From Phyllobacteriaceae bacterium UBA1940 (GTDB lineage Bacteria > Pseudomonadota > Alphaproteobacteria > Rhizobiales > Rhizobiaceae), in NCBI GenBank assembly GCA_002336975.1, contig DDFA01000114.1, positions 1 through 52,768 of the forward strand: DNA of 52,768 nucleotides, given 5' to 3'. Shown in pieces: positions 2,215 through 33,032 of the stretch. Each line of letters starts with the position of its first letter. Positions within the stretch are counted from its first letter, which is position 1. The translations under genes were made by a program, and so were the position numbers. Under the pieces are notes generated by a model, which ran no database searches, was not told the origin of the DNA, and worked only from the letters and a program-made list of their open reading frames with translations.

Positions 2215-3243
2215 CTACTCTCCCCAGACTTCCTTGAAGACGCGTAGGAAGTTGCCGCCGAGAATCTTCTGCGCGTCTTCCTCGCTATAGCCGCGCCGCA
2301 AGAGCGCGCGCGTCAGGTTTTTAGCTTTGCGACGCTCGTCGAGGTCGGGCAGGTAGCGCACCTTCGGTGCCTTGCCTAGGCCGCGCGCCTTGCTGTGGAG
2401 GGTACGGACCTCGAGTTCGGTGCGCCCCTCGCCGGCATCGAGGCCAAAGCCGACATGATCGATGCCGATCTTGTTTACCATGTAGTCGATCTGGTCGATG
2501 AATTGGTCCATCGTTGCGCCCGTCTCATCGGCACCCGGCGCGATCACTTGGTTGTAGGCCGAGGCGCCGATAACGCCGCCCTTAGCTGCAAGCGCGACCA
2601 GCGTTTCGTCGTCGACGTTGCGCGGTGCATTGCACAGCGCCTTGGCGTTGCTGTGGGAGAAGATGACCGGCTGGCGAGATTCGCGGATCGTGTCGAGTGC
2701 GGTATTCGGGCCGGCGTGAGAGAGGTCGATCACAATACCGGCGTCGTTGAACGCATGCACCAGCGACACGCCGAACTTGCTGAGGCCGCTGTCGTTCTTT
2801 TCGCCGCAGCCGTCGCCGGCCGCGTTCTTCGACTGGTAGACTACTTGCGAGACGCTGATGCCGAGGCGCTTGGCCATCGGCACGAGGCTGAGATCCTCCT
2901 CCACCCAGTCCGAGTTCTGCGCGGTGAGGATGAAGGCCGTCTTGCCTTCCGCCTTTGCCTTGTGGACTTGGGCGACGCTGTGGGCGATGGCGAGTCGGTC
3001 CGCGCGCTCGGCGACACGCGTATACCAAGTGGAAAGGTTGCGCGCCAGGTCGGCGAAATCGTCGTAGAGCCAAATCGCGTCCACCAGGATGGCCGTGAGG
3101 CCGCCTTCGCGCATCGAATCGTAATAGTCGGGCTTCTCCTCGCGCGTGAAGAGATACATCAAATGCGTCGGGTCGCGCCCGTCAACGATGAGCGCCTTGT
3201 CGTGAACCAAATCTACCCTGTCTTCAGCCACAGTCTTGTCCAA
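2215..3243 (-). CDS. M19 membrane-dipeptidase-like protein with altered metal site
   Basis: 342 residues matching the M19 (renal dipeptidase) fold in order: VDGRDP near residue 21, QNSDWVEEDLSLV near 110, the KNAAGDGCGEKNDSGLSKFG segment, IDLSHAG, PVIFSHSNAKAL, HVGFGLDAGEG and a C-terminal GGNFLRVFKEVWGE. Canonical members bind two zinc ions with an HxD pair in DGHND, a bridging Glu in EGG, and two later His. Here the HxD pair is replaced (DGRDP) and the Glu position reads Gln, while both later His remain. A sizeable bacterial M19 subfamily carries QN in place of EGG, so this is probably a functional divergent enzyme rather than a dead one, but peptide hydrolysis should not be assumed. It lies 36 bases after the tautomerase gene, probably in one operon. 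Confidence 0.8.
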   Translation of the reverse strand: MDKTVAEDRVDLVHDKALIVDGRDPTHLMYLFTREEKPDYYDSMREGGLTAILVDAIWLYDDFADLARNLSTWYTRVAERADRLAIAHSVAQVHKAKAEGKTAFILTAQNSDWVEEDLSLVPMAKRLGISVSQVVYQSKNAAGDGCGEKNDSGLSKFGVSLVHAFNDAGIVIDLSHAGPNTALDTIRESRQPVIFSHSNAKALCNAPRNVDDETLVALAAKGGVIGASAYNQVIAPGADETGATMDQFIDQIDYMVNKIGIDHVGFGLDAGEGRTELEVRTLHSKARGLGKAPKVRYLPDLDERRKAKNLTRALLRRGYSEEDAQKILGGNFLRVFKEVWGE

Positions 3244-21082: not shown

Positions 21083-24000
21083 TCAGAACCAGAGAGTGGT
21101 GACGGACGGTACGCCTGCGCCAAAGGTCTGCCCGATCTGGGCAATGCGGACGGACAGGGAATCGCTCGGTCCGAGCAGCGCGCCCCAGTCGGCGGTCTGG
21201 TCGGCAGCGGTATAGACGACGCTGGTGGTGGCAGCTGCCAAGACCCGTTTGGCAACTGCACCGTCAAGGACCTCGACCGCCCATGTTTCGGATGCTTCGC
21301 TCATCGGGATTTCAGCAGCATTCCAGCTGTCGGCGGCAAGCGAGCGATCGCGGCGCACCCAGCTTATCGTCAGATCGCCGGGTGTACGAGCACTGCGCCA
21401 TGGCTGCTCGACATGGACCGGAGCGAAAGGCCGGAGCCCGACGCCTTCCGGCGTGAAAACCCGCGCCACATAGGTCTCGTCGCTGACGGGTTTCGATGCC
21501 GGGCCGATGCGCCAGTTCCATGGGATGCCAATGTCCGCTTCGGCCACAGGCAGATCGGCGAGCATGTTGTCGAGCGCCACAACCCTCGCGCCGGCTGGCA
21601 CCGGATTGCCCATCGCGCCCTCGGTGCCGCGCTGGCCACGCAACAGTCGCGTCAGCCGATAACGACCGGGCGCGATCAGTTCTGCTGATCCTGCCTGCAG
21701 GATTTCCCAGACGCCCGGCGCGCTTCCCACCGCCAGCGCATTGGCCCCACCGAAGAGCGTAATATCAGTGACGCTTTCGAGCGTGCCGGTGACGAGATCG
21801 ACAATCATGACGTTGCCATGATCGAAGCGCGAGACCGGCCCAGAATATAGATCATTCACGAGCATGCCGATGCGAGCGCGCGTCCCGAAGGTGGTGACGA
21901 GTTCGAAGCCGTCAGTCTCCGGGCTGCGGAACACCGCCATCTGCCCCGGCCAGGGAACAGCGTGAGCGGCGATAACCGGATGGTGCGGTGCACGCGCTTC
22001 CGTCAGTTGCGGCAGATCGAGGATCACCACCTCCGGCGCGCCAAAGGAGACGATCTTCGATGGTGCCGCCGGCCGGGCGGCACCGGGTGGCAGATCATAA
22101 TCCTGCCGATCCTGCCGGATGGCTTCGATATTGCGGGATTCGGCATCGGCAACCGAGACGAGGCGGAAACCGAGCTGACGACCGTCGTGATCGAGCCGGA
22201 TCACATCGGCGGGATCGAGCGCCAGCCGCGATGGCGGCAGCCGGAATATGGCGCTCTCGCGTCCCGTCCACGCTTCCATCAGGGCGCGGCGGCAGCGGCG
22301 TTCGGCTTCTTCGGGTGGCACGGCAAAGGGGAAGGTCTCGGCGCTGATGCGAGATGCCTCGACGGTGATGCGCCGGGCCTCGACCACCGCCGCATCGTAA
22401 TCCTCGTCGGCACGGGCCACCTGCCATTTGAGCGCCTGCGGCAGTTCGGTCTCCTGGCCACGGGTCAGTTCCAGCACCTCATCCTGACTGGCTGCCACCA
22501 TGGCGTCGGCCGAGATACTGGCGACAGATGCCCGCCCGCGCATGACGAAACGGATATTGCCTTCGCTCTCGACGGCATCGAAGCCGAAGTGGCGGGCAAG
22601 GTTCGAAATTGACGCCCGCGGGCTTTCCAGAGCGCCGATGACATAGCCTTCGATCGCGCCCCAGAGGCCCGAGACATCGATCTGCGCTTCGGCCATGCCG
22701 GCGCGCAGGCAAAGATGCCGCACGAGGGCGGCGAGCGAGACTGCACCGAGGCGGCCACTCAGCCAGTGCCCGAGCCGCCAATTGGGGCCGTCGGTCCAGA
22801 CGTCGGTCAGTCCCGGAAAGAACGGATAGGGCCGCGCGTCCCAGGTCCAGGCGGCGCATTCGGGAACATGCACCATCCGCCTTCCATCGACGCTCGAAGT
22901 CGGATTGTTCGCCGGATCGCCCCACCAGAGCCAGGTGGCTTCCAGATACGCCCGCTGGATCGCATCATCGCGCCAGCCGCGCGAGAAGTACGGGGTAAAA
23001 CTTTCCGACGACTTCGGATCGAAGAAGACGTTCGGCTGGTTGGTGCCGCGATCGATGGCGGGGCAGCCGAGCTCGGTGAACCAGATCGGTTTTGACTGTG
23101 GAATCCATGTGGTTGGCGTGTCGCTTTCGATCCCACTGGGGCGGTCATAATGCGGATTTGACCACCAGGAACGCAGATCCTTGGAGCGGAACACCCAAGG
23201 CTTGCCGGCGGCGCCATCGGTGATCGAAGTGCGGGCCTGATACATCCGGTCGGCATCGGAGGCATAGAACCAGTCAAACCCTTCGCCGCCGGCGATGTTC
23301 GCCTGCAGATAGGCGCGGTCGTAAATGGCGGGCCAGCCGGCTTGGGCGTCGAGATGATCGAACCCGTCGCGCCAGTCGGAAAGCGGCATGTAGTTGTCGA
23401 TGCCGATGAAGTCGATATTGGCGTCGGCCCAGAGCGGATCGAGGTGGAAGAACACATCGCCAGAGCCGTCCGGCGGCTGATGCCCGAAATACTCGCTCCA
23501 GTCGGCGGCATAGCCAATCTTCGTGCCCGCGCCGAGGATCGAGCGGACATCGGCCACGAGGCTCTTGAACGCCGCGACGGCAGGATAGGCGGATGCACCC
23601 GACCGGATTGTCGTGACCCCGCGCATTTCCGAGCCGATAATGAAGCCATCGACACCGCCCGCCGCCGCGCAGAGATGGGCATAGTGCAGCACCATGCGCC
23701 GCAGGCCCCAGTCGCTGGGTGAGCCGGTCCAGCTGACGGTCTCGCCCGAGACGGCAAAGTTGGCCGGGGTTGCGGCGCCGAAGAAGCTCGCGACCTGCGA
23801 AGCGGCAGCAGCGGCGGTCTTGTCGACGCTCCCGGCATACCCGGCCGCGGGCGAACAGGTGATGCGGCCACGCCATGGAAAGGCCGGCTGACCTGCTGCA
23901 CCCGCGTTGTCGCTGTAGGGATCCGGCAGCGTGTTGCCGGGCGGCACGTCCATCAGGATGAACGGATAGAAGGTGACGCGAAGCCCGCGCGCCTTCATCT

Positions 24001-25051
24001 CCCGGATCGCCTGCACGACGGCGAAATCCGCCGGCGTGCCGCCATAGCCGGGCCGGTTCTCGGCATCACGACTGACGAGATGCGCGCTGGCGCGGCTGAC
24101 ACCGTTCACAACCCACGTCTTCGGGCTAGTGGTTTTGGAGGGAACCTCGACGCCCGGACGGATCGTGCAATTGCCAGCACGCAGATCGTTGCCAAACCAG
24201 GCGACGACGAGGCTGACGCTTTCGACCTTCGGCGCCATGGCCTGCAGCCGGTCGAGCGCCACTATCATGTCAGCGCTGTCGGAAAGAGCATTGAGGTTTT
24301 CCGCCACCTGGGCGCCACTGTCACCCTTGCGGATGGCCTGTGTCGCATAGGTGAACTCACCCGAAGCGGGAATCATGGTGACGGCCTGCGTCAGGCCTTC
24401 AGCAGTATCGGGATCGGCAAGCGGCCGGAATATCTCAAAGGAGAGCTGCGGTAGACGGTTGCCATAATCGGCCAGCAGCAGTTCCTCGAACACCACATAG
24501 GCCGTGCCGCGATAGGCCGGCGTGTTGGCAGCACCCATCTTTGCGGCAAGGAACGGATCGACGGTCTGGTTTTCGTCGCCGGGATACCAGCGCCAGACGA
24601 TGCCGGCGGTGTCGAGTAGCTTGCCGTCAGCCCAGATGCGGCCGATGCCGGTAACCGGGCCTTCGCAGAGCGCGACGGCGAAGCTCGCGTAATAGAGATA
24701 TTCCGTCGTTCGGACCTTGCCGCCACCGCCGCCCTTGCCACCACCCTGTGTGGTGGTGTTCGTCTCCTCACGGAAATCCGTCGCCCAGATGATGTTGCCG
24801 CCGATGCGCATGCGGCCGTAAAGCCTCGGAATTACCGCGCCTTCGGTCGATGAGGTGATGCGCAGGCTGTCCAGCCGCGGCCCTTCGATGCGCTGGGTGG
24901 GCGCCAACGAGGAGATGATCCAGCTGTCGACCACCGAGCCCACGGTCGAGCCGATGAAGCCGCCGATGGTTGCGGCGCTGACGCCAAGGATCGTGCCGCC
25001 GATGCTGCCGCCAATGGCAGCGCCGGCAACGCCGAGAACAAGGGTGGCCAT
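21083..25051 (-). CDS. Large baseplate/host-specificity protein of gene-transfer-agent type
   Basis: 1322 residues, the largest gene here. The N-terminal 60 residues are Gly/Ala-rich and hydrophobic (GVAGAAIGGSIGGTILGVSAATIGGFIGS). The middle, about 250-760, is the GTA TIM-barrel-like glycoside-hydrolase domain with WFTELGCPAIDRGTNQPNVFFD. Following parts match the phage tail protein domains found in the gp15-like host specificity proteins of RcGTA and related siphophages. It should form the baseplate hub and penetrate the outer layers of the host. It lies directly after the NlpC/P60 gene, the same order as in gene transfer agents. Confidence 0.85.
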   Translation of the reverse strand: MATLVLGVAGAAIGGSIGGTILGVSAATIGGFIGSTVGSVVDSWIISSLAPTQRIEGPRLDSLRITSSTEGAVIPRLYGRMRIGGNIIWATDFREETNTTTQGGGKGGGGGKVRTTEYLYYASFAVALCEGPVTGIGRIWADGKLLDTAGIVWRWYPGDENQTVDPFLAAKMGAANTPAYRGTAYVVFEELLLADYGNRLPQLSFEIFRPLADPDTAEGLTQAVTMIPASGEFTYATQAIRKGDSGAQVAENLNALSDSADMIVALDRLQAMAPKVESVSLVVAWFGNDLRAGNCTIRPGVEVPSKTTSPKTWVVNGVSRASAHLVSRDAENRPGYGGTPADFAVVQAIREMKARGLRVTFYPFILMDVPPGNTLPDPYSDNAGAAGQPAFPWRGRITCSPAAGYAGSVDKTAAAAASQVASFFGAATPANFAVSGETVSWTGSPSDWGLRRMVLHYAHLCAAAGGVDGFIIGSEMRGVTTIRSGASAYPAVAAFKSLVADVRSILGAGTKIGYAADWSEYFGHQPPDGSGDVFFHLDPLWADANIDFIGIDNYMPLSDWRDGFDHLDAQAGWPAIYDRAYLQANIAGGEGFDWFYASDADRMYQARTSITDGAAGKPWVFRSKDLRSWWSNPHYDRPSGIESDTPTTWIPQSKPIWFTELGCPAIDRGTNQPNVFFDPKSSESFTPYFSRGWRDDAIQRAYLEATWLWWGDPANNPTSSVDGRRMVHVPECAAWTWDARPYPFFPGLTDVWTDGPNWRLGHWLSGRLGAVSLAALVRHLCLRAGMAEAQIDVSGLWGAIEGYVIGALESPRASISNLARHFGFDAVESEGNIRFVMRGRASVASISADAMVAASQDEVLELTRGQETELPQALKWQVARADEDYDAAVVEARRITVEASRISAETFPFAVPPEEAERRCRRALMEAWTGRESAIFRLPPSRLALDPADVIRLDHDGRQLGFRLVSVADAESRNIEAIRQDRQDYDLPPGAARPAAPSKIVSFGAPEVVILDLPQLTEARAPHHPVIAAHAVPWPGQMAVFRSPETDGFELVTTFGTRARIGMLVNDLYSGPVSRFDHGNVMIVDLVTGTLESVTDITLFGGANALAVGSAPGVWEILQAGSAELIAPGRYRLTRLLRGQRGTEGAMGNPVPAGARVVALDNMLADLPVAEADIGIPWNWRIGPASKPVSDETYVARVFTPEGVGLRPFAPVHVEQPWRSARTPGDLTISWVRRDRSLAADSWNAAEIPMSEASETWAVEVLDGAVAKRVLAAATTSVVYTAADQTADWGALLGPSDSLSVRIAQIGQTFGAGVPSVTTLWF

Positions 25052-25054
25052 GGA

Positions 25055-25531
25055 TCAGGACCTTGTCTTGCGCCGGGCCTTCTTGCATCGGACAAGGGCC
25101 GGTCGTGGAAAAAGGAAGGCGAAGGCGATGCGCCGCCGCCAGGACAGAGTGAGCGGCTCTTCGATCACGCCGAGCCGCTCATAGGCATGGATGAACGTGC
25201 CGGTATCGGTCAGGATGCCGACATGCTTGGCGATGGCCCGGCGCTCCATGCGGAAGATCAGCAGCGCGCCGGAGCCGGCGTTGTCTGGCGCGATCTCGAT
25301 CATCGCGCCGCGCGCACCTTCGGCCAGCACCTCGCGCGGGCCGGTTTCGCCCCAGTCACGGCTGTAGGGTGGGATGACAAATGGTTCGCCGCCTACCACC
25401 TCGCGCCAGACGCCGCGCGCGAGGCCGAGGCAATCGCAGCCGACGCCCTTGAGGCTCGCCTGGTCGTGGTAGGGCGTGCCAAGCCAGGAGCGGGCGACAA
25501 CAATGACACACTTGGGATTGGCGGGCTTCAC
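25055..25531 (-). CDS. NlpC/P60-family tail peptidase
   Basis: 158 residues. The motif GCDCLGLARGVWRE near residue 32 holds the likely nucleophile Cys34, and AKHVGILTDTGTFIHAY supplies the His. This matches the phage cell-wall peptidase encoded between DUF2163 and the large baseplate protein in gene transfer agents and related phages. It cleaves peptidoglycan cross-links during DNA entry. The start overlaps the end of DUF2163, and the C-terminus is rich in Lys/Arg. Confidence 0.88.
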   Translation of the reverse strand: MKPANPKCVIVVARSWLGTPYHDQASLKGVGCDCLGLARGVWREVVGGEPFVIPPYSRDWGETGPREVLAEGARGAMIEIAPDNAGSGALLIFRMERRAIAKHVGILTDTGTFIHAYERLGVIEEPLTLSWRRRIAFAFLFPRPALVRCKKARRKTRS

Positions 25532-26412
25532 AGCACCGCTCCGTTGTGACCACCGTCGCGCGACGCATAACGCAGTATGGCGTCCTGCCCCGGAATGTGC
25601 GGAAAGCCGCGGAAATTGGCGACATTGCCAAACTTGCCCGAGCAGGTGGCCAGCCGCTTGTCGCAGCCGGCACGAATAATGAAGGTGTCGGTTTCGGCAA
25701 TCGGCCGCACCGGCGCTTCCAGCAGGGTCAGGATGGCGATCCCGTCAACGAGATCATGCGACAACACCTCGGCCCGCCGTCCTGCATCGGCGCCGCTGGT
25801 CCATGTGATGGTGCCGAAGGCGAACCAGCTAGCCGCAAAGCCGCCAAGTCCCGATGCCGTGAATGCCCGGTCGCGCAACAGGTCGATCACCGCGCCGGTG
25901 CCCTTGAAGGCAGGTGCATCGAGATTGACCCGGCAGCGGGTGTCACCGAGCTCGGCGTCGCAATCCGCCTGGAACATGCGGCCGACGGTCTGGCCGAGCA
26001 CATGCGCCATGCTGCGCATCTCGGCGACAAAGACGAGCCGGCCGCGCCGGATCTGGCCGATGGCGCCATGGCGTAGCAGGACGCACTGACTCGGGTCCTG
26101 CCAGTTCACCCGCCAGACCTCGACCTCCGCATTGTCCCAGCGGCCGTCGAGAATATCGGTTTCGGTAATGCGGCCAGATGACAGCACACCCTGCGCGTCC
26201 TGCGCATCGACCGACAGGTCCGAGCCGGCACGTACCGCCGACGCCGTCAGCCCGCTTTCCGGCTCGAACGCGGTGCCGTCGAAGCTGAGCGTCCGGTCGT
26301 GGTCGGTGAAGCCGAAGACGGCGCCATCGGCGCGGGTGATGCGCCAGCACCAGCTGAGCGTCGTCGTGCCTTCGTCGAGATGGGCCTGCAGTTCAGGGGA
26401 AAGGTTTTTCAT
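25528..26412 (-). CDS. DUF2163 tail protein (GTA gp13-like)
   Basis: 294 residues. The motifs LSWCWRITRADGAVFGFTDHDRTLSFDG at the start and CDKRLATCSGKFGNVANFRGFPHIPGQD at the end, with four Cys near CDAELGDTRC and CDKRLATC, define the DUF2163/BR0599 phage family. In gene transfer agents this is a distal tail component encoded just before the peptidase. Its gene follows the holin gene rather than DUF2460, so the lysis genes have separated two normally adjacent tail genes. Confidence 0.88.
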   Translation of the reverse strand: MKNLSPELQAHLDEGTTTLSWCWRITRADGAVFGFTDHDRTLSFDGTAFEPESGLTASAVRAGSDLSVDAQDAQGVLSSGRITETDILDGRWDNAEVEVWRVNWQDPSQCVLLRHGAIGQIRRGRLVFVAEMRSMAHVLGQTVGRMFQADCDAELGDTRCRVNLDAPAFKGTGAVIDLLRDRAFTASGLGGFAASWFAFGTITWTSGADAGRRAEVLSHDLVDGIAILTLLEAPVRPIAETDTFIIRAGCDKRLATCSGKFGNVANFRGFPHIPGQDAILRYASRDGGHNGAVL

Positions 26413-26428
26413 TGTTGTTCACCGACCA

Positions 26429-26953
26429 TCACGACCGCGCGGTCCATTTGACAGCCAGGTCCTTGAGCGTGTGGCCGCCCATGTAGAGGCCCATGAACCA
26501 GGCGGTCAGCGTCATCATGGTGGGCAGATCAACAGTTGCCGCAATGTCGGAACCGAGGGCCGCATCGGCGATCGGAACCAACACAAGCCGGAACAGGAAG
26601 AGAAAGCCGAGGAACCACATCCATGCCGGCCGCCACGCCCATGTCCACCAACTCTCGCCCTTGTCCAGCTCGGCCAGCATCAGCCTGTTGGTCTCACGCT
26701 GCTGGTCGACCCATACGGCGACGAGCTGCGGCGTCTCCACCTCGGTAGCGGCCACGGCCGCTTCGAGATCCTTCGACGGAACTGAAGGAAGATCGTCTGG
26801 CGCCACACCCGCCTTGCTGGCAATCGCGTCGATGACCACGCCGCCAATCTCGCTGGCGGTGCCACCGAGATATTTCTCGAGCAAGCCCTTGATGATCGGT
26901 GCGCCGATTTTCGCCGCGGCGTCGATCAGGATGGAAGCAATGACAGTGTTCAC
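26429..26953 (-). CDS. Holin-like membrane protein (3TM type)
   Basis: 174 residues from the GTG at 26953, which overlaps the stop of the endolysin gene (GTGA). Two hydrophobic segments, WTWAWRPAWMWFLGFLFLFRLVLVPIADAAL and MMTLTAWFMGLYMGG, lie in the C-terminal half; WRP before the first is typical of the 3TM holin family. The N-terminal half is amphipathic (IASILIDAAAKIGAPIIKGLLEKYLGG). It is encoded beside the GH108 lysin and probably makes or regulates the lysis pore. Confidence 0.75.
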   Translation of the reverse strand: MNTVIASILIDAAAKIGAPIIKGLLEKYLGGTASEIGGVVIDAIASKAGVAPDDLPSVPSKDLEAAVAATEVETPQLVAVWVDQQRETNRLMLAELDKGESWWTWAWRPAWMWFLGFLFLFRLVLVPIADAALGSDIAATVDLPTMMTLTAWFMGLYMGGHTLKDLAVKWTARS

Positions 26954-27699
26954 AACATGACCCTTTCTGCCTCGGCGGCATAGGCTGCAGCGCGCTGCCG
27001 GTGGACGATGGCGCGGACGATGAGTATTGCGGCCACAACCGCCCCGGCCGTCAGCAGACCGCCCAGCACCCAGCCGGCGATCTGGTCGGCATGCTGCGGA
27101 TTGAGCAGCACATCGCCGCTGCCCGCCGTGGTCGCGGTGCCTGCTGTGCCGGCTCCAACGGTCTGCTTTTTCGAGGCGGTGGTGGCCGCCGCCGCTTCCT
27201 TCGCCAACTGCTCGCGGGTCTGGACAGGACCGACCGCGTTGGCGAGTGCCCACGCCACACCTTTGGCCTCGATTTCAGCCACACGCCGCGACCAGCCCTT
27301 GCCAAAAGTGGTCCAGATGGCGAGCGAACGCATGAAGCCGAGGCGCTTCGCGCAGAGTTTTTGAACTGTCTCGTGGTCGGGGCCTCCGATCGAGGCCATC
27401 AGCCATTTTCTGGCGCGTGTCGGGCCGGAGTTCACACCGGCATCGAAGGTGGCGAGATCGACCCCGGCGGCAAGCCGATCACCATTGACCGTGTCCCAGT
27501 AGCCGGCGCGGTAGATGGTCTCGACGTCCTTTGCCGGGATATTGCGCAACTGGGTCTTGGTCGCGCCCGTCCTGAAGCGGCGATAGGTGGCGAGCGTGAT
27601 GCCCTTCATGGTGGCGCCGCCGGGATCGGAGGGATGATCCGACCAGCCGCCCTCGTAGCCTAGCGTCACCGCCAGGCAGTTCTCAAAATTCCCATGCAT
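26950..27699 (-). CDS. GH108 muramidase (endolysin) with C-terminal membrane segment
   Basis: 249 residues. Glu16 in LGYEGGWSDHPSDPGGATMKGIT is the catalytic residue of the GH108 lysozymes; AGVDLATFDAGVNSGPTRARKWL follows. Instead of the usual peptidoglycan-binding domain, the C-terminus has an Ala/Thr linker and a single hydrophobic helix near 209-233 (IAGWVLGGLLTAGAVVAAILIVRAIV) followed by basic residues. The enzyme therefore seems anchored in the inner membrane by its C-terminus. GAGGTG precedes the start; the gene directly follows a 43-residue membrane protein gene. Confidence 0.87.
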   Translation of the reverse strand: MHGNFENCLAVTLGYEGGWSDHPSDPGGATMKGITLATYRRFRTGATKTQLRNIPAKDVETIYRAGYWDTVNGDRLAAGVDLATFDAGVNSGPTRARKWLMASIGGPDHETVQKLCAKRLGFMRSLAIWTTFGKGWSRRVAEIEAKGVAWALANAVGPVQTREQLAKEAAAATTASKKQTVGAGTAGTATTAGSGDVLLNPQHADQIAGWVLGGLLTAGAVVAAILIVRAIVHRQRAAAYAAEAERVML

Positions 27700-27703
27700 G
27701 GGA

Positions 27704-27835
27704 TCACCTCAAAAGGATAACGATCAGGATGAAGACCGCGACCATGGTCCCGACGCGCAGACGGTGGACGAAGGTCTCGCGCGGATCGGGGCTGTCGCAG
27801 CGAAGCTGGCGGGCAAGCCGCAGGAGCTCACGCAT
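27704..27835 (-). CDS. Small single-span membrane protein (43 aa) in the lysis cassette
   Basis: A 43-residue frame begins at 27835, overlapping the end of the upstream holin-like gene by 8 bases, and stops 4 bases before the endolysin start. Its basic N-terminal half contains RELLRLARQL and RETFVHRLRVG. The C-terminus is one hydrophobic helix, TMVAVFILIVILL. Position, overlap and topology favour a real lysis accessory protein (spanin- or antiholin-like), but no family was recognised. Confidence 0.6.
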   Translation of the reverse strand: MRELLRLARQLRCDSPDPRETFVHRLRVGTMVAVFILIVILLR

Positions 27836-28175
27836 CGGTGTCGCCTCCCTTGTTGCGCAGGCGCGCCAGCGTCACTTCGATGAAGGCGGGGCCGAAGACG
27901 CCGACGAGATAGGCGGCGGACCCTGCAGCGCCGCCCGCCGGAATGGCTTCTGACGGCAGGCCGAGCCAGTGGGTGACCAGCGCCATGGAAAAGCTGCCCA
28001 TGCCGGCGGCGATGATCCCGCCGAGCAGGATGTGACGTAGCGCATCGCGCAAATGCATCTTCGTGGTCAGTGCATTGGTGGCGCCGCCAAGCGCGCCCCA
28101 GGCGGCAAGGATCACCGCTGTCGATGCCGCAAGATCGCGCAGCGCGTTAGCGATGAAGCCGGGTTCGTCGTTCAT
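27828..28175 (-). CDS. Holin-like phage membrane protein
   Basis: 115 residues with three likely membrane spans: AASTAVILAAWGALGGATNAL, HILLGGIIAAGMGSFSMALV and GGAAGSAAYLVGVFGPAFIEV. The N-terminus is short and acidic and the tail charged (LARLRNKGGDTDA), the topology of class I holins. The gene overlaps the DUF2460 gene by a few bases and the 43-residue gene by 8, so it belongs to the lysis cassette. Two holin-like genes are thus present; one may be an antiholin. Confidence 0.65.
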   Translation of the reverse strand: MNDEPGFIANALRDLAASTAVILAAWGALGGATNALTTKMHLRDALRHILLGGIIAAGMGSFSMALVTHWLGLPSEAIPAGGAAGSAAYLVGVFGPAFIEVTLARLRNKGGDTDA

Positions 28176-28798
28176 CTTCGGATTTCCACAAGGGGAATGG
28201 AGGTGATCGAGCCGAGGCGCTCGAGATCGAGGGTGATGTCGAGCGTGTCGGTGTCGAAACGGACCGCCACGTCGAACTCGAAACCGGCGGTGATGGCGAC
28301 GCCGGAGAGAGGCGCGGTACTGAAGGTGACAAGGCCGGTGGCGGCATCGACCGACCAGCCGGAGGGTTTTGGCGTGCCGTTCAGCGCGATCTTGACGCTG
28401 CCGGCGACGAGCATGGTGATGGTCCGCACCCAGCTCTGGCTGCCCGATGGGTAACGCTTGACCAGCTGGAACACCTTGGTGCTGCCGTCGCCGGTGCCGA
28501 TCGTCTGATCGGTGGCAGCCGGGATTACCGACGGCAGGCAGGATTTGTAATCCGCCCAGTCCTTGAAGCGGAACCCGTGCAGTCGCCCGTTGCGCGCCTC
28601 GAAGAAGGCGACGACCGCCGCCAGATCATCGGCGCGGCGGATGCCATAGGCGACGTCGTAACGACGACGAGAATTGGCCCAGCTGGCATTGCGCTCCTCG
28701 TCGCCCGAGGCCAGTTCGACGATCTGGGTGCGCCGTTCCGGCCCACCGCGCGCGCCACGCGAAATGTCATCCGGAAACCGGACCTCGTGGAATGCCAT
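28172..28798 (-). CDS. DUF2460 tail protein (GTA gp12-like)
   Basis: 208 residues from the ATG at 28798; the longer frame to 28891 overlaps the tape measure gene without support. The start AFHEVRFPDDISRGARGGPERRTQIVELASGDEERNASW and FFEARNGRLHGFRFKDWADYKS are diagnostic for DUF2460 (TIGR02217). It is a distal tail component, encoded after the tape measure gene as in gene transfer agents. Confidence 0.9.
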   Translation of the reverse strand: MAFHEVRFPDDISRGARGGPERRTQIVELASGDEERNASWANSRRRYDVAYGIRRADDLAAVVAFFEARNGRLHGFRFKDWADYKSCLPSVIPAATDQTIGTGDGSTKVFQLVKRYPSGSQSWVRTITMLVAGSVKIALNGTPKPSGWSVDAATGLVTFSTAPLSGVAITAGFEFDVAVRFDTDTLDITLDLERLGSITSIPLVEIRR

Positions 28799-28808
28799 GA
28801 TCGAAACC

Positions 28809-30938
28809 TCAAAGCCCGCGCCGACCCAGCGACACCGCGCGGGCGATGTCGGCGGCGACCTGCGTGCGCGATTGCCGGAAGCTTGCCGCATCGCGGGTCA
28901 TGATGGTGACGTTGACGGTCGGAGCGGATGCACCATGTGCCGCCGCAGCCGTCTCACGACGGGAAAGCACCCGCTCGCCGCGTTGCAGGATCGCCGGCAC
29001 CTCGTCCGGTCTGAGGCCGGCCCAGCCGCCCGAATGCATGCGGGGTGCTGTTGCGAAGGCCATGGCTGGCACCATGCGGCCGGGACCGGATGAGCCGACC
29101 ACGCCACCGGCGTGCAGGATGTTGGCGAACAACCCTCCCGCACTGCCAAGAGCACCTGAAAGGACGTTGGCAATCGGGCCAAGGATGAAGCGCCGCGCGG
29201 CGAGCTTGGCCAGGTCGGCAATGAGCGAGGTGACCAGATCGCCAAACTTCAGCTTGCCGGTCTTGACGAACTCACCGATCGCATTCTCGGCACCCTGAAA
29301 GGCATTGACCAGTGCATTGCCGACATCGGCGCCAATGTCGCGTGCCTTTTCGGCATAGTCGGAGAGACTCTTGACCACCGCATCCCAACCGGTGACCGCT
29401 TCATCGGACGCATCCTTGTTCGCCTTGCCGGCCCTTTTGGCCGCCGCCGCCGAACTATCGAGCGCGTCGGTGACACGGCCAGCCGCTGCTGCGGCATCGT
29501 CGAGCGATACGGTACTGTCCGCCCCTTTGATGGCGTCGCCAAGCGCCTGCGCGGCTGGGCCGACAGCATCAAATGCATGGGCACGCGTGTCCGTTGCGCG
29601 CTGGCGATAGCGATCCGCCATGACACCGGCATTGCTGACGGCATGATCGAGCATCGAGGCGTAGGATTGCGCCCCGAACCAGTCGATCCGGGTATCGGCC
29701 CCGAGCGTCTCGGCAACGTTGTTGAAGGTCGGCCCGATTGTGCCGAGGAAGTCGGCCCACTTGTTCGACAGGAACGCCATCAGCTTGAGCCAGAGCTGCT
29801 CGACGCTGGCCTTGATCGAACGAAAATCGTCAACGAACGAGCCGGCAACAACCTTGATCCCGTCCCAGACGCCGCTGGCCAGATTGCCCATCAGTTCGAG
29901 CGCGTGCCCGAAACCGCCGGCACCCTTCACCAGTTGGCCGAACCAGTAAATGAGCTCACCCGCAGCAACGATCAGCGCCCCGATGCCGGTGCGGATGATG
30001 GCGCCGCGCAGCAGCGCCAGTGCGCCCGACAGGCTGAAGGTGGCAATTCGTGCCGCAACGAACGCCGCAACCCAGCGCCCAGCCATGAAACCGGCAAAAG
30101 CGACACCGATGGCGGCAAGGTGCTCGAGATTGTCGGCGAGCAGAATGATCGCGCCCGCAACCATGGATGATGCGCCTGCCATCGTGTCCCAACTGCCGAC
30201 CAGTTGCAGGGCGGCATTGGAAAGCAGCGTGAAGGCATCGCCGATGGTGGCGGGCATGGAGTCGGCTTCCTCACGCAGGCGCTCGAGATTGCCGACCAGT
30301 GCGCGCCGGATCACATCGCCGGTGATTGTGCCTTCCGCCCCGAGGCTGCGCAACTGATTGACGTTGAGGCCCAGCTCCGCCGCCAGCAGCTCGGCCACCC
30401 GGCCGCCGCTGGCGATCACGGTGTTGAGGTTGTCGCCGGAGAGTTTTCCCAGCGCCATCGCCTTTGACAGCGCATTCTGTACCGAGGCGGCGCGTTCGGC
30501 CTTGGCGCCCGACACCACCATGGCGTTGTTCAAAGCCTCGGTGAAATCTAGACTCTCCTTCGTGGAGAGCCCCAGCTCCCTGAGCGCCGTGGCATTGGTG
30601 AGCCAGGATTCCGTCGTCTGCTCGATGCCGGAATAGGTCTGCCGCGCCATGGCGGCGAGCCGTTCCATGACGGCCGCACCTTTCTCTTGGCTGCCGGTGG
30701 CGAGATCGACCCGCGAGCGCAGGTCGGTCCAGGTGTTGGTGTAGGTGACAAGCTGCTGGACGCTGATCGCCGCACCGAGCACCCCCATGACCCGGCGCAC
30801 GACCTTTCCGGTAATGTCGGCCTGTTTCTCGATGCGCTTGAAGCTCGCCTCGCCAGCCTCGCCAACACCCTGAAACTCGGACCTGACCAACCGGCCGCCC
30901 TCGGCAACGAGCCGGACGGAGACACGCTTTTCGGCCAT
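28809..30938 (-). CDS. Tail tape measure protein
   Basis: 709 residues. The N-terminal 230 residues form the tape-measure domain (ARQTYSGIEQTTESWLTNATALRELGLS, KLSGDNLNTVIASGGRVAELLAAELG). Hydrophobic Ala-rich segments follow (about 240-330), then a helical middle, and a C-terminal part similar to lambda-type tape measures (FGDLVTSLIADLAKLAARRFILGPIANVL). Its length would correspond to a tail of roughly 100 nm by the usual proportionality. It follows the tail chaperone gene by 21 bases. Confidence 0.88.
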   Translation of the reverse strand: MAEKRVSVRLVAEGGRLVRSEFQGVGEAGEASFKRIEKQADITGKVVRRVMGVLGAAISVQQLVTYTNTWTDLRSRVDLATGSQEKGAAVMERLAAMARQTYSGIEQTTESWLTNATALRELGLSTKESLDFTEALNNAMVVSGAKAERAASVQNALSKAMALGKLSGDNLNTVIASGGRVAELLAAELGLNVNQLRSLGAEGTITGDVIRRALVGNLERLREEADSMPATIGDAFTLLSNAALQLVGSWDTMAGASSMVAGAIILLADNLEHLAAIGVAFAGFMAGRWVAAFVAARIATFSLSGALALLRGAIIRTGIGALIVAAGELIYWFGQLVKGAGGFGHALELMGNLASGVWDGIKVVAGSFVDDFRSIKASVEQLWLKLMAFLSNKWADFLGTIGPTFNNVAETLGADTRIDWFGAQSYASMLDHAVSNAGVMADRYRQRATDTRAHAFDAVGPAAQALGDAIKGADSTVSLDDAAAAAGRVTDALDSSAAAAKRAGKANKDASDEAVTGWDAVVKSLSDYAEKARDIGADVGNALVNAFQGAENAIGEFVKTGKLKFGDLVTSLIADLAKLAARRFILGPIANVLSGALGSAGGLFANILHAGGVVGSSGPGRMVPAMAFATAPRMHSGGWAGLRPDEVPAILQRGERVLSRRETAAAAHGASAPTVNVTIMTRDAASFRQSRTQVAADIARAVSLGRRGL

Positions 30939-30959: not shown

Positions 30960-31636
30960 TCAGCCGCGTTCGGCCGCCATCTGTTCGTTGAGCTTGCGCA
31001 CCATCACCGCCTCGATCTCGGGTAGGCATTCGGCAGCAATGAGCGGATCAAGGCGAAGGGCCCGCGACATGGCGAGAGCCGCCGTCATGTCCCAGCCGAT
31101 GACGACGCTGGCGCCCATGCCGCCGGCAATGCGCAATTGTCCGGTCAGGCGCAGCACCAGGTCCCAGACCTGCCAACCCTCGAGCGTTTCCGGACGGTTC
31201 AGCCGCGCCGGGCAGCCTTCGCACGAGGGCTCGCAGGCCGCGCAGTAGCTTTCGCCCCCGCCGAAGTGCCACTCGGCAAGGGCGATGAGACGTTTTTTTC
31301 CGATTCCAGCATCAGATGCGGCGCCAGACAGCGGGTCTGGAACGCCTCGAATACAGGCCAGATGTCGAGCAGCGCGTCGATGCCCTCCGGGGTAACGGGC
31401 ACGGGCTTGCCGTCGGCATCGCCGACGCCCTCCCAATCCGTCACCACACGCCGCGCGACAGCCCTGGCCATGACGAGCGCTATTTGCTCCTGGCTGGCAT
31501 CCTTGGGCAGCGCCTCGACGGCCGGATCGTTGCGGGCTGCAACCATGGTGGCCGTGGTGACCGGCAGGACATGCAGCCGCAAATCGTGGCCAAGATCGAG
31601 CCACTTCGGCTTAGCGGAAAGATCGAGACGGATCAT
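30960..31636 (-). CDS. Tail assembly chaperone, made by -1 ribosomal frameshift (G-GT type)
   Basis: Two overlapping frames lie just upstream of the tape measure gene. The 0 frame starts at 31636 (MIRLDLSAKPKWLDLG) and, unshifted, stops at 31199 as a 145-residue protein. At 31298-31292 (minus strand) it contains A AAA AAC in the correct X XXY YYZ phase. A -1 slip there yields KKRLIALAEWHFGGG and continues to 30960, giving about 225 residues. The -1 part is protein-like (conserved Cys in YCAACEPSCEGC), whereas the 31 codons left in frame 0 are Arg/Pro/Ala-rich. This is the lambda G/GT arrangement at the canonical gene position. Confidence 0.82.
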
Positions 31637-31638
31637 GG

Positions 31639-32583
31639 TCAGTAGTCCTCCATATCATTGATGAGAACGGCAGTGCACATGCGCCCGAGCGTGCCATCAC
31701 GCGCCGCCTGCCAGTCGAAGCTTGCCTGCACGCCCTGCGGCCCGGAAATCTCGATCCGGGGCTGCGGCAGATAGACGGCATGGACGGTGACGGTCAGGCT
31801 TTCGCCAGAACCGAGGTTGTAGGAGAATTCCAGCTCGCAGGGCGTGCCGTTGATGGCCTGTGTCACCAGCGTGCTGTCGGCAAAGCGGACCTCGGTGCGG
31901 CCAGTGAGTGCGGCAATGGATGGGTCGGCGCCATCGATCATGCCGTCGGCGCGGATGGTCTCGATCCGGTCGAGATTGTTGGCATAGGTGATCTCGGTCG
32001 AAATGACATTGCCGAGCGCGGTGCCGTTGCGTTTGATGGCGCCGTTGAAATGCCCGAAGCGGATGAGGTCGAGTTCGGCGGGCGTGCCGGCCTGCGTCGT
32101 GGTGCTGACCGTCTCGCCCTGTGCCACCAGCCGCGCGGTTGCGGTCAAGAGCCCGGAGCGCTGCATCTGCCAGGTCAGCTGATCGAGCACCACGCCGGAA
32201 TACATGGCGTAGCGCGGCACCTCCGGCATTCCGGTCTCGATCGCCATCGATGGCAGCGTCCAGGACCCCGACTGGAAAGTGTGGGTGAAGGGCCCGGGCG
32301 CGGTGCCGGTCGTCGTGGGCGCACCAAAGGCCGCTTTCAGCCAGAAGCCGAAGCTTGAAGTATCGATCGGCACCACCACGTCGCCGTCGGCAGTGACGGC
32401 ATCCTTGACCGGCGCCAGTGGATCGCGGCCATAGCCCAATAGCTCGGAATTGAGCAGCGGCTGCTCGGACCCGAGCGTCGTGCTGGCAAACGGCATGCGC
32501 GTGAAGCCGCTTGCCGGCGGCGTGCCATAAAGCGTCTCGAACGCGAGCGCCATCCGCGCTCGCGCCCCCTGGGCTCGTGCCAT
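31639..32583 (-). CDS. Phage tail tube (major tail) protein
   Basis: 314 residues from the ATG at 32583, which has AAGGA upstream; the frame extends to 32736 but that part overlaps the previous gene. The segments MALAFETLYGTPPASGFTRMPF, GDVVVPIDTSSFGFWLKAAFG, PFTHTFQSGS and SGVVLDQLTWQMQRSGLLTATARLVAQG are typical of the lambdoid tail tube proteins of rhizobial siphophages. It polymerises around the tape measure to form the tube. Confidence 0.82.
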   Translation of the reverse strand: MARAQGARARMALAFETLYGTPPASGFTRMPFASTTLGSEQPLLNSELLGYGRDPLAPVKDAVTADGDVVVPIDTSSFGFWLKAAFGAPTTTGTAPGPFTHTFQSGSWTLPSMAIETGMPEVPRYAMYSGVVLDQLTWQMQRSGLLTATARLVAQGETVSTTTQAGTPAELDLIRFGHFNGAIKRNGTALGNVISTEITYANNLDRIETIRADGMIDGADPSIAALTGRTEVRFADSTLVTQAINGTPCELEFSYNLGSGESLTVTVHAVYLPQPRIEISGPQGVQASFDWQAARDGTLGRMCTAVLINDMEDY

Positions 32584-32612
32584 GATCTTGTCCTTGTCAG
32601 ATGTTGTCGGGA

Positions 32613-33032
32613 TCAGCCGAGCGGATCGACCGTCGAATAGTGCAGCACCACCGCAATAACGGCGGCCTTGAGAGCTGCGGCGCCCTCGACCGGCAAATCG
32701 ACCGGCTTTGGCGCTTCCGCTTCCACCCAGTCGCACAAGCCCCCGAGCGTGTCGTCACCGGCAATCACCGTGCCGACGCTGGCGCAGAGCGCGTCAAATG
32801 CCGCATCCCGGCTTGCGCCTTGCACGATGGCCTCGATCTCGGACCTGTGCTGGTAATGGTAGGTGAGCGGCGACAGCGTCACCTCGGGGTCGCCCGGCTC
32901 GCCGTCGCGCAGGATCAGCAGCCCTGTGGCCGGTACGCGCTCAGGCAGCACGTCACCGCGCAAGACGGTGGCGGACAGTGCCGAAAGCCGCGTGTGCAAC
33001 GCGGCGAGGATGGTTTCGCGGGTGGTGGGCAT
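32613..33032 (-). CDS. Minor tail/tail terminator-like protein
   Basis: 139 residues with the pattern TTRETILAALHTRLSAL, VPATGLLILRDGEPGDPEVTLSPL, HRSEIEAIVQG. It is a well-spread phage protein, sometimes mis-annotated as an acyl-CoA transferase. Position directly before the tail tube gene and the length match the lambda U-type tail terminator, which caps the tube. No RBS problem; the start is at 33032, divergent from the toxin promoter. Confidence 0.7.
   Translation of the reverse strand: MPTTRETILAALHTRLSALSATVLRGDVLPERVPATGLLILRDGEPGDPEVTLSPLTYHYQHRSEIEAIVQGASRDAAFDALCASVGTVIAGDDTLGGLCDWVEAEAPKPVDLPVEGAAALKAAVIAVVLHYSTVDPLG

Follow-up and report, generated by a model that had tools for sequence, protein, structure and literature searches.

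A tail module in DNA of Phyllobacteriaceae bacterium UBA1940 carries a chaperone gene whose reading frame runs into a stretch of seven adenines, beyond which a second, overlapping frame opens, and this raises the question of whether one gene here specifies two chaperones, a short and a long one, by programmed -1 ribosomal frameshifting. A precedent is found in lambda, where a low-level -1 frameshift occurs in the chaperone gene and the short and long forms act on the tape measure protein, as described in PMC5009743. A sequence-only reading of the window, by which we mean the whole stretch of DNA analysed (52,768 nucleotides of contig DDFA01000114.1), had proposed such a frameshift. Judging by sequence comparison, we consider it very probable that this gene, part of a siphophage-type tail module, undergoes programmed -1 ribosomal frameshifting of the lambda G/GT type.

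The module lies on the minus strand in the order tail tube, chaperone, -1-frame extension and tape measure, with the following features:

31639..32736, minus strand: tail tube protein, 365 aa (Pfam Phage_tube_2, 6.5e-57)
31199..31636, minus strand: 0-frame open reading frame, short tail assembly chaperone (G form), 145 aa (PHROG 313, E 1.4e-24)
31292..31298, minus strand: slippery heptamer A_AAA_AAC, identified by sequence and phase
30960..31292, minus strand: -1-frame extension (T part), 110 codons plus stop, with CxxCxxxCxxC near its start (DUF7697, phrog_11212, AlphaFold)
28809..30938, minus strand: tape measure protein, 709 aa (Pfam TMP_3, 6.4e-51; Tape_meas_lam_C, 1.1e-21)

The chaperone gene is therefore placed between the tail tube and tape measure genes, as in lambda G/GT-type modules, and its 0-frame product belongs by PHROG assignment to a tail assembly chaperone family. 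Its location directly 5' of the tape measure gene, which the sequence-only reading had given, is confirmed by the gene order and the TMP_3 match. By analogy, the tape measure protein would be the expected client of G/GT, and the tail tube protein, which PHROG 290 names minor tail protein, the expected partner of the T part. Elsewhere in the window, positions 21083-28891 hold distal tail genes like those of gene transfer agents and phiJL001, including DUF2460, a Gp84-like hub, NlpC/P60 and a 1322-aa protein with a GTA TIM barrel and an Rcc01698 C-terminal domain. A single 692-aa open reading frame at 35232-37310 matches both a capsid protein and a prohead protease (Peptidase_S78, weakly) and is likely a protease-capsid fusion; a fusion of capsid and protease is also described, in PMC8601537, for the RcC phages.

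At the site itself, a run of G, seven A and C reads GAA AAA AAC in the 0 frame, which sets the heptamer A_AAA_AAC in 0-frame phase at 31298-31292, exactly the sequence, coordinates and phase first claimed for it. The window has a single AAAAAAC, against an expectation of 1.65 copies over both strands and all phases; within the 412-nt overlap of the two frames about 0.002 in-phase copies are expected, and no second in-phase X_XXY_YYZ heptamer was found in that overlap. Joined by a -1 shift, the G and T parts give a 225-aa GT form, so that the two chaperones of about 145 and 225 residues that had been predicted agree with the sequence. The -1 frame past the heptamer is open and protein-like in composition, as described before, and counts 110 codons plus stop rather than 111 codons. 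The fusion peptide would be ESEKK-RLIAL, the version earlier proposed (ESEKKRLIAL), if slippage precedes decoding of AAC, and ESEKN-RLIAL (ESEKNRLIAL) if both tRNAs slip in tandem after the A-site tRNA has decoded AAC. The preference for GC at each codon position shifts frame at about the position of the heptamer. Past this point the 0 frame runs on for 30 Ala/Pro/Ser/Arg-rich codons, which look like an Ala/Pro/Arg-rich by-product tail. When the -1-frame codons of 45 representatives were resampled, the 0 frame stayed open for about 30 codons with a mean probability of 0.87; since the -1-frame codons alone give this value, openness is not evidence of selection for the tail.

Is the arrangement shared by relatives? 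DNA relatives were collected via the T half, a choice blind to the frame relation of G and T, from genome contigs (best 80 of 100), two viral-contig sets (best 80 each), two further viral-contig sets of 5 and 7 loci, five phage records, and a whole-genome source (7 of 201 genomes of relatives, the window's own genome among the 7). The merged sets comprised 205 distinct 130-nt segments and, after removal of the window's own, 204 relatives. The heptamer was A_AAA_AAC in 188 of these, G_GGA_AAC in 12, and A_AAA_AAG and A_AAA_AAA in one each, so that 202 of 204 distinct relatives have an in-phase slippery heptamer at the equivalent site. The two others are L018, with eight A and one frame, and L038, which is without a G part. 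Where phase was taken from G-part matches, a recognisable G part was present in 168 of 169 loci, and T lay at -1 relative to G in 166 of these 168 (two copies of the window itself included) and in the same frame in 2, L018 and L130, which are one and the same contig; in a further set (L175-L264), phase was read from the T frame. Of 40 representatives at 90% identity, 38 vary mainly at third codon positions, those of the 0 frame up to the heptamer and those of the -1 frame beyond it. Conservation of heptamer and phase across divergent relatives is what is looked for in a frameshift signal. The alignment of homologues thus bears out the proposed frameshift, as do the switch of coding phase and the joined coding sequences of three Rhodobacter phage records.

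Several of these relatives deserve separate mention. L038 (2316-3441) is a Shinella fusca T sequence behind a 195-aa open reading frame that we take to be transposase-like, and because of this neighbour it is probably a remnant. Through L171 and L172 the family extends to cyanophages, with Synechococcus and Nostoc as the recorded sources; the version found there has the heptamer A_AAA_AAA, and both records give two unjoined coding sequences. The 0 frame ends one codon past the heptamer in 42 of 202 distinct relatives (for example L047, 2995-3007), and 20-39 codons past it in the remaining 160.

The repeated exchange of one heptamer for another bears on the mechanism. Between G_GGA_AAC and A_AAA_AAC, at least three changes are forced on well-supported branches of a tree that has several long branches, of which the tree program warns. 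The swap to G_GGA_AAC turns a 0-frame Lys into Gly and abolishes the run of seven A, while the tandem-slip rule is retained, which favours ribosomal over transcriptional slippage. In the latter case RNA polymerase would slip on the A run and mRNAs of mixed length would give both proteins, for which the seven A of the window and the eight A of a cyanophage relative are suggestive. However, the relatives with G_GGA_AAC keep the two-frame layout at the equivalent site with no long homopolymer. Adherence to the X_XXY_YYZ rule fits ribosomal slippage, as does a hairpin 6-7 nt past the site. Seven A would also be short for transcriptional realignment, as A runs longer than 7 are named for it in PMC3711429. 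We therefore regard transcriptional slippage as very unlikely.

It might also be asked whether the A run was simply miscounted or the gene broken, the true gene being one continuous frame. Homologues with one frame and six or eight A, which the sequence-only reading had named as the sign of such an error, do exist; they are rare among the DNA relatives (1 of 204), and in-frame junctions are also seen in at least 14 of the 120 database proteins listed, a list whose ranking favours fusions. The DNA case is L018 from Chelatococcus sambhunathii (2993-3001; also L130), a prophage with eight A and one continuous G-T frame, and a second copy on that contig (L055) has a normal site. The protein cases come from a search with the 225-aa query in which 120 of 2367 matches were listed, fusions at the top. 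With the window's own protein set aside, G and T are in one frame in 48 of the 119 listed proteins, a figure that is not a rate since the listed matches favour fusions. In at least 14 of these the join falls at the true junction and reads EKKR or EKR (13 by pattern, 10 EKKR and 3 EKR, and P0125 by eye), and about 34 further listed proteins are fused where the frames meet elsewhere. Against an error stand the 188 of 204 distinct relatives with A_AAA_AAC in phase and the 12 that have G_GGA_AAC without a long A run. Moreover, whereas fusions rank first in the protein search, the T-anchored, frame-blind DNA sample contains a single one, and the fusion points, scattered over mostly single-contig proteins, resemble scattered indels. 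An erroneous or decayed gene is thus, in our view, extremely improbable. True-junction fusions do occur in isolate genomes, including those of Celeribacter indicus, Rhodovulum euryhalinum and Roseisalinus antarcticus, where they may be either real or assembly errors.

With programmed -1 frameshifting as the preferred reading, the next question is what might stimulate it. Downstream of the heptamer we find:

31285..31291, minus strand: spacer from heptamer to hairpin, 7 nt to the 12-bp core, or 6 nt counting the U-A pair 31285/31252
31253..31284, minus strand: predicted stimulatory stem-loop with 12-bp core (MFE -27.4 kcal/mol, z -3.59)
31284-31273, 31272-31265 and 31264-31253, minus strand: 5' arm, loop and 3' arm of this stem-loop in the fold of 31240-31291

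The stretch 31240-31291 folds into a long stem-loop, the stability of which was equalled in 1 of 200 shuffles. Its predicted stem of 12-13 bp begins 6-7 nt past the heptamer, within the 5-8 nt at which frameshift-stimulating structures are placed in PMC4066793. In a 121-nt context the identical stem forms, but the z of the whole stretch is just -1.71. Of 203 relatives, 190 form no fewer than 11 of the 12 standard pairs of the 12-bp core; another 8 form 9 or 10, and the remaining 5, L057 and L261-L264, form 8 or fewer. Synonymous codon choice within the stem is strongly skewed. The Leu codon is CTC or CTT in 200 of 203 relatives and CTG in none, CTG being 43% of background Leu; at the Ala position the third base is a pyrimidine in 199 of 203, GCG being 42.5% of background Ala; and the Gly codon is GGG in 175 of 193 with Gly, versus 16.6% in the background. 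When folding was compared with synonymous resampling in the -1 frame, mean z was -2.45 across 65 representatives, 49 of which fell below -2. The 19 with a 0-frame stop one codon past the heptamer averaged -3.01. These values are descriptive because the relatives are not independent. Five control windows further along T gave z from -0.40 to 0.11, and in L166 the folding excess was absent by the same resampling (z 0.02).

Dual coding was considered as a source of this bias and rejected, as the bias is equally strong in the 19 representatives with an early 0-frame stop; the openness of the 0-frame tail in 45 representatives, explained at 0.87 by -1-frame codons alone, disfavours it too. In the close set (the window and 65 representatives), a search for two-sided covariation gave one such change and did not clearly exceed shuffles. 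In a 77-sequence set, double-change cells numbered 6, whereas shuffling gave 2.2 on average and reached that count in 5 of 500 trials. The covariation score of this set was reached by 3 of 500 shuffles; these figures are inflated by relatedness. Two-sided covariation being weak, the case for the hairpin rests on codon choice and folding energy. Nor is the hairpin universal, since L261-L264 (around 1995-2047), a distant lineage, keep A_AAA_AAC without a stable hairpin. On the 5' side of the heptamer, inspection by eye gave no consistent Shine-Dalgarno-like stimulator. In the host genome, listed as 81% complete, the loci examined covered 30 of 38 tRNA matches; among these, tRNA-Lys UUU is present and tRNA-Lys CUU was not found.

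The T half has an identity of its own. It matches Pfam DUF7697 (E 3e-24; 85.1 bits, cut-off 27) over residues 60-110 only, and phrog_11212 at E 4.1e-22, and its AlphaFold model has a pLDDT of 88.0 and a pTM of 0.79. The Pfam model spans 52 positions, leaving outside it T's first half with the conserved cysteine cluster, where W8 and four Cys are invariant in an alignment of 57. The region of DUF7697 and phrog_11212 corresponds to 30960-31157 of the window, and databases list separate proteins of unknown function for it; judging from sequence, both families appear to stem from gene calling that cut the frameshifted T half short.

The same entries could be taken to mean that T is translated separately from an internal start and never fused, given the hundreds of separate short DUF7697 proteins in databases (713 matches) and the two cyanophage records with two coding sequences and no join. 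However, none of the earliest possible T starts, codons 46, 53 and 59, is preceded by a clear ribosome binding site when inspected by eye; a product begun there would lack the domain's first half with W8 and the four invariant Cys, and conservation of the -1 frame starts at the heptamer. A separately started T seems to us exceedingly unlikely compared with a T made as part of GT.

How does this gene compare with known systems? Lambda-type G/GT frameshifting is well described, and the homologous gene already has a joined annotation in three RcC phage records. The Rhodobacter capsulatus RcC-cluster phages RcKemmy, RcOceanus and RcKai are homologous in both halves (46-47% identity in T) and share the gene order and junction of the window, with the heptamer G_GGA_AAC in place of A_AAA_AAC. 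In the RcKemmy stem, which is part of alignments A1 and A4, there are U-A pairs and a single mismatch. All three Rhodobacter phage records examined, of 11 matched, annotate a joined tail assembly chaperone coding sequence, and PMC8601537 treats the frameshift as present in most phages of its set. Lambda G/GT shares the scheme of short and long chaperones and differs in heptamer, given as G_GGA_AAG in PMC7618472; the likeness is one of scheme. HK97-type tail assembly chaperones (for example 2ob9) gave no significant sequence or fold score, and the g-t genes of the haloarchaeal viruses HCTV-1, -2 and -5, unlike that of the window, belong to viruses of archaeal hosts. We know of no hairpin identified for the lambda G/GT frameshift. 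Fold matches of the T model to the PDB were weak. In the viral fold library no tape measure or tail assembly chaperone scored at E <= 0.001; among its top 13 rows the model resembled six tape measure chaperones and the Loki chaperone weakly (TM 0.44-0.54, Foldseek E 0.04-0.57). In Acinetobacter phage Loki, AAAAAAC adjoins the gp12 stop in gp12-gp13, according to PMC5313236.

From the heptamer, its phase, the phase switch, conservation, the constraint on the hairpin and the gene order, all of which can be read in the sequence, we infer the slippage itself, its rate, the stimulatory role of the hairpin and the roles of G and T, as follows. The 145-aa chaperone G would be the product of most ribosomes, which would keep to the 0 frame. 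The remaining ribosomes, a minority, would stall at the hairpin 6-7 nt downstream with tRNA-Lys and tRNA-Asn on AAA AAC, move back by one base on A_AAA_AAC and translate 110 more codons, which would yield the 225-aa GT. If lambda is a guide, the tape measure protein would be bound by G and GT, and T would recruit tail tube subunits.

In the open-licence PubMed Central papers searched, neither the hairpin of this family nor its T half or DUF7697 was found; within that literature, the downstream hairpin and the likely identity of DUF7697 with the T half are new, and both go beyond the sequence-only reading. It is tempting to speculate, at somewhat less than even confidence, that throughout this family, which is found mainly in Alphaproteobacteria and in two cyanophages, G/GT is governed by a two-part signal, a repeatedly exchanged heptamer together with a conserved, stimulatory hairpin by which the G:GT ratio is set, and that T is a metal-binding chaperone domain with a four-cysteine cluster, split off and cut down as DUF7697 in public databases. 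The analysis suggests that DUF7697, to which databases assign no function, is the tail end of a frameshifted chaperone, and re-annotation of T would touch hundreds of database proteins. If the in-frame fusions are real, such prophages may make GT alone. The 42 relatives with a 0-frame stop next to the heptamer and the 160 with a later one offer a natural contrast for the effect of a nearby stop on frameshifting. More broadly, the family forms a large natural series varying in heptamer, hairpin and 0-frame stop distance, so that the contribution of each to the G:GT ratio would be measurable.
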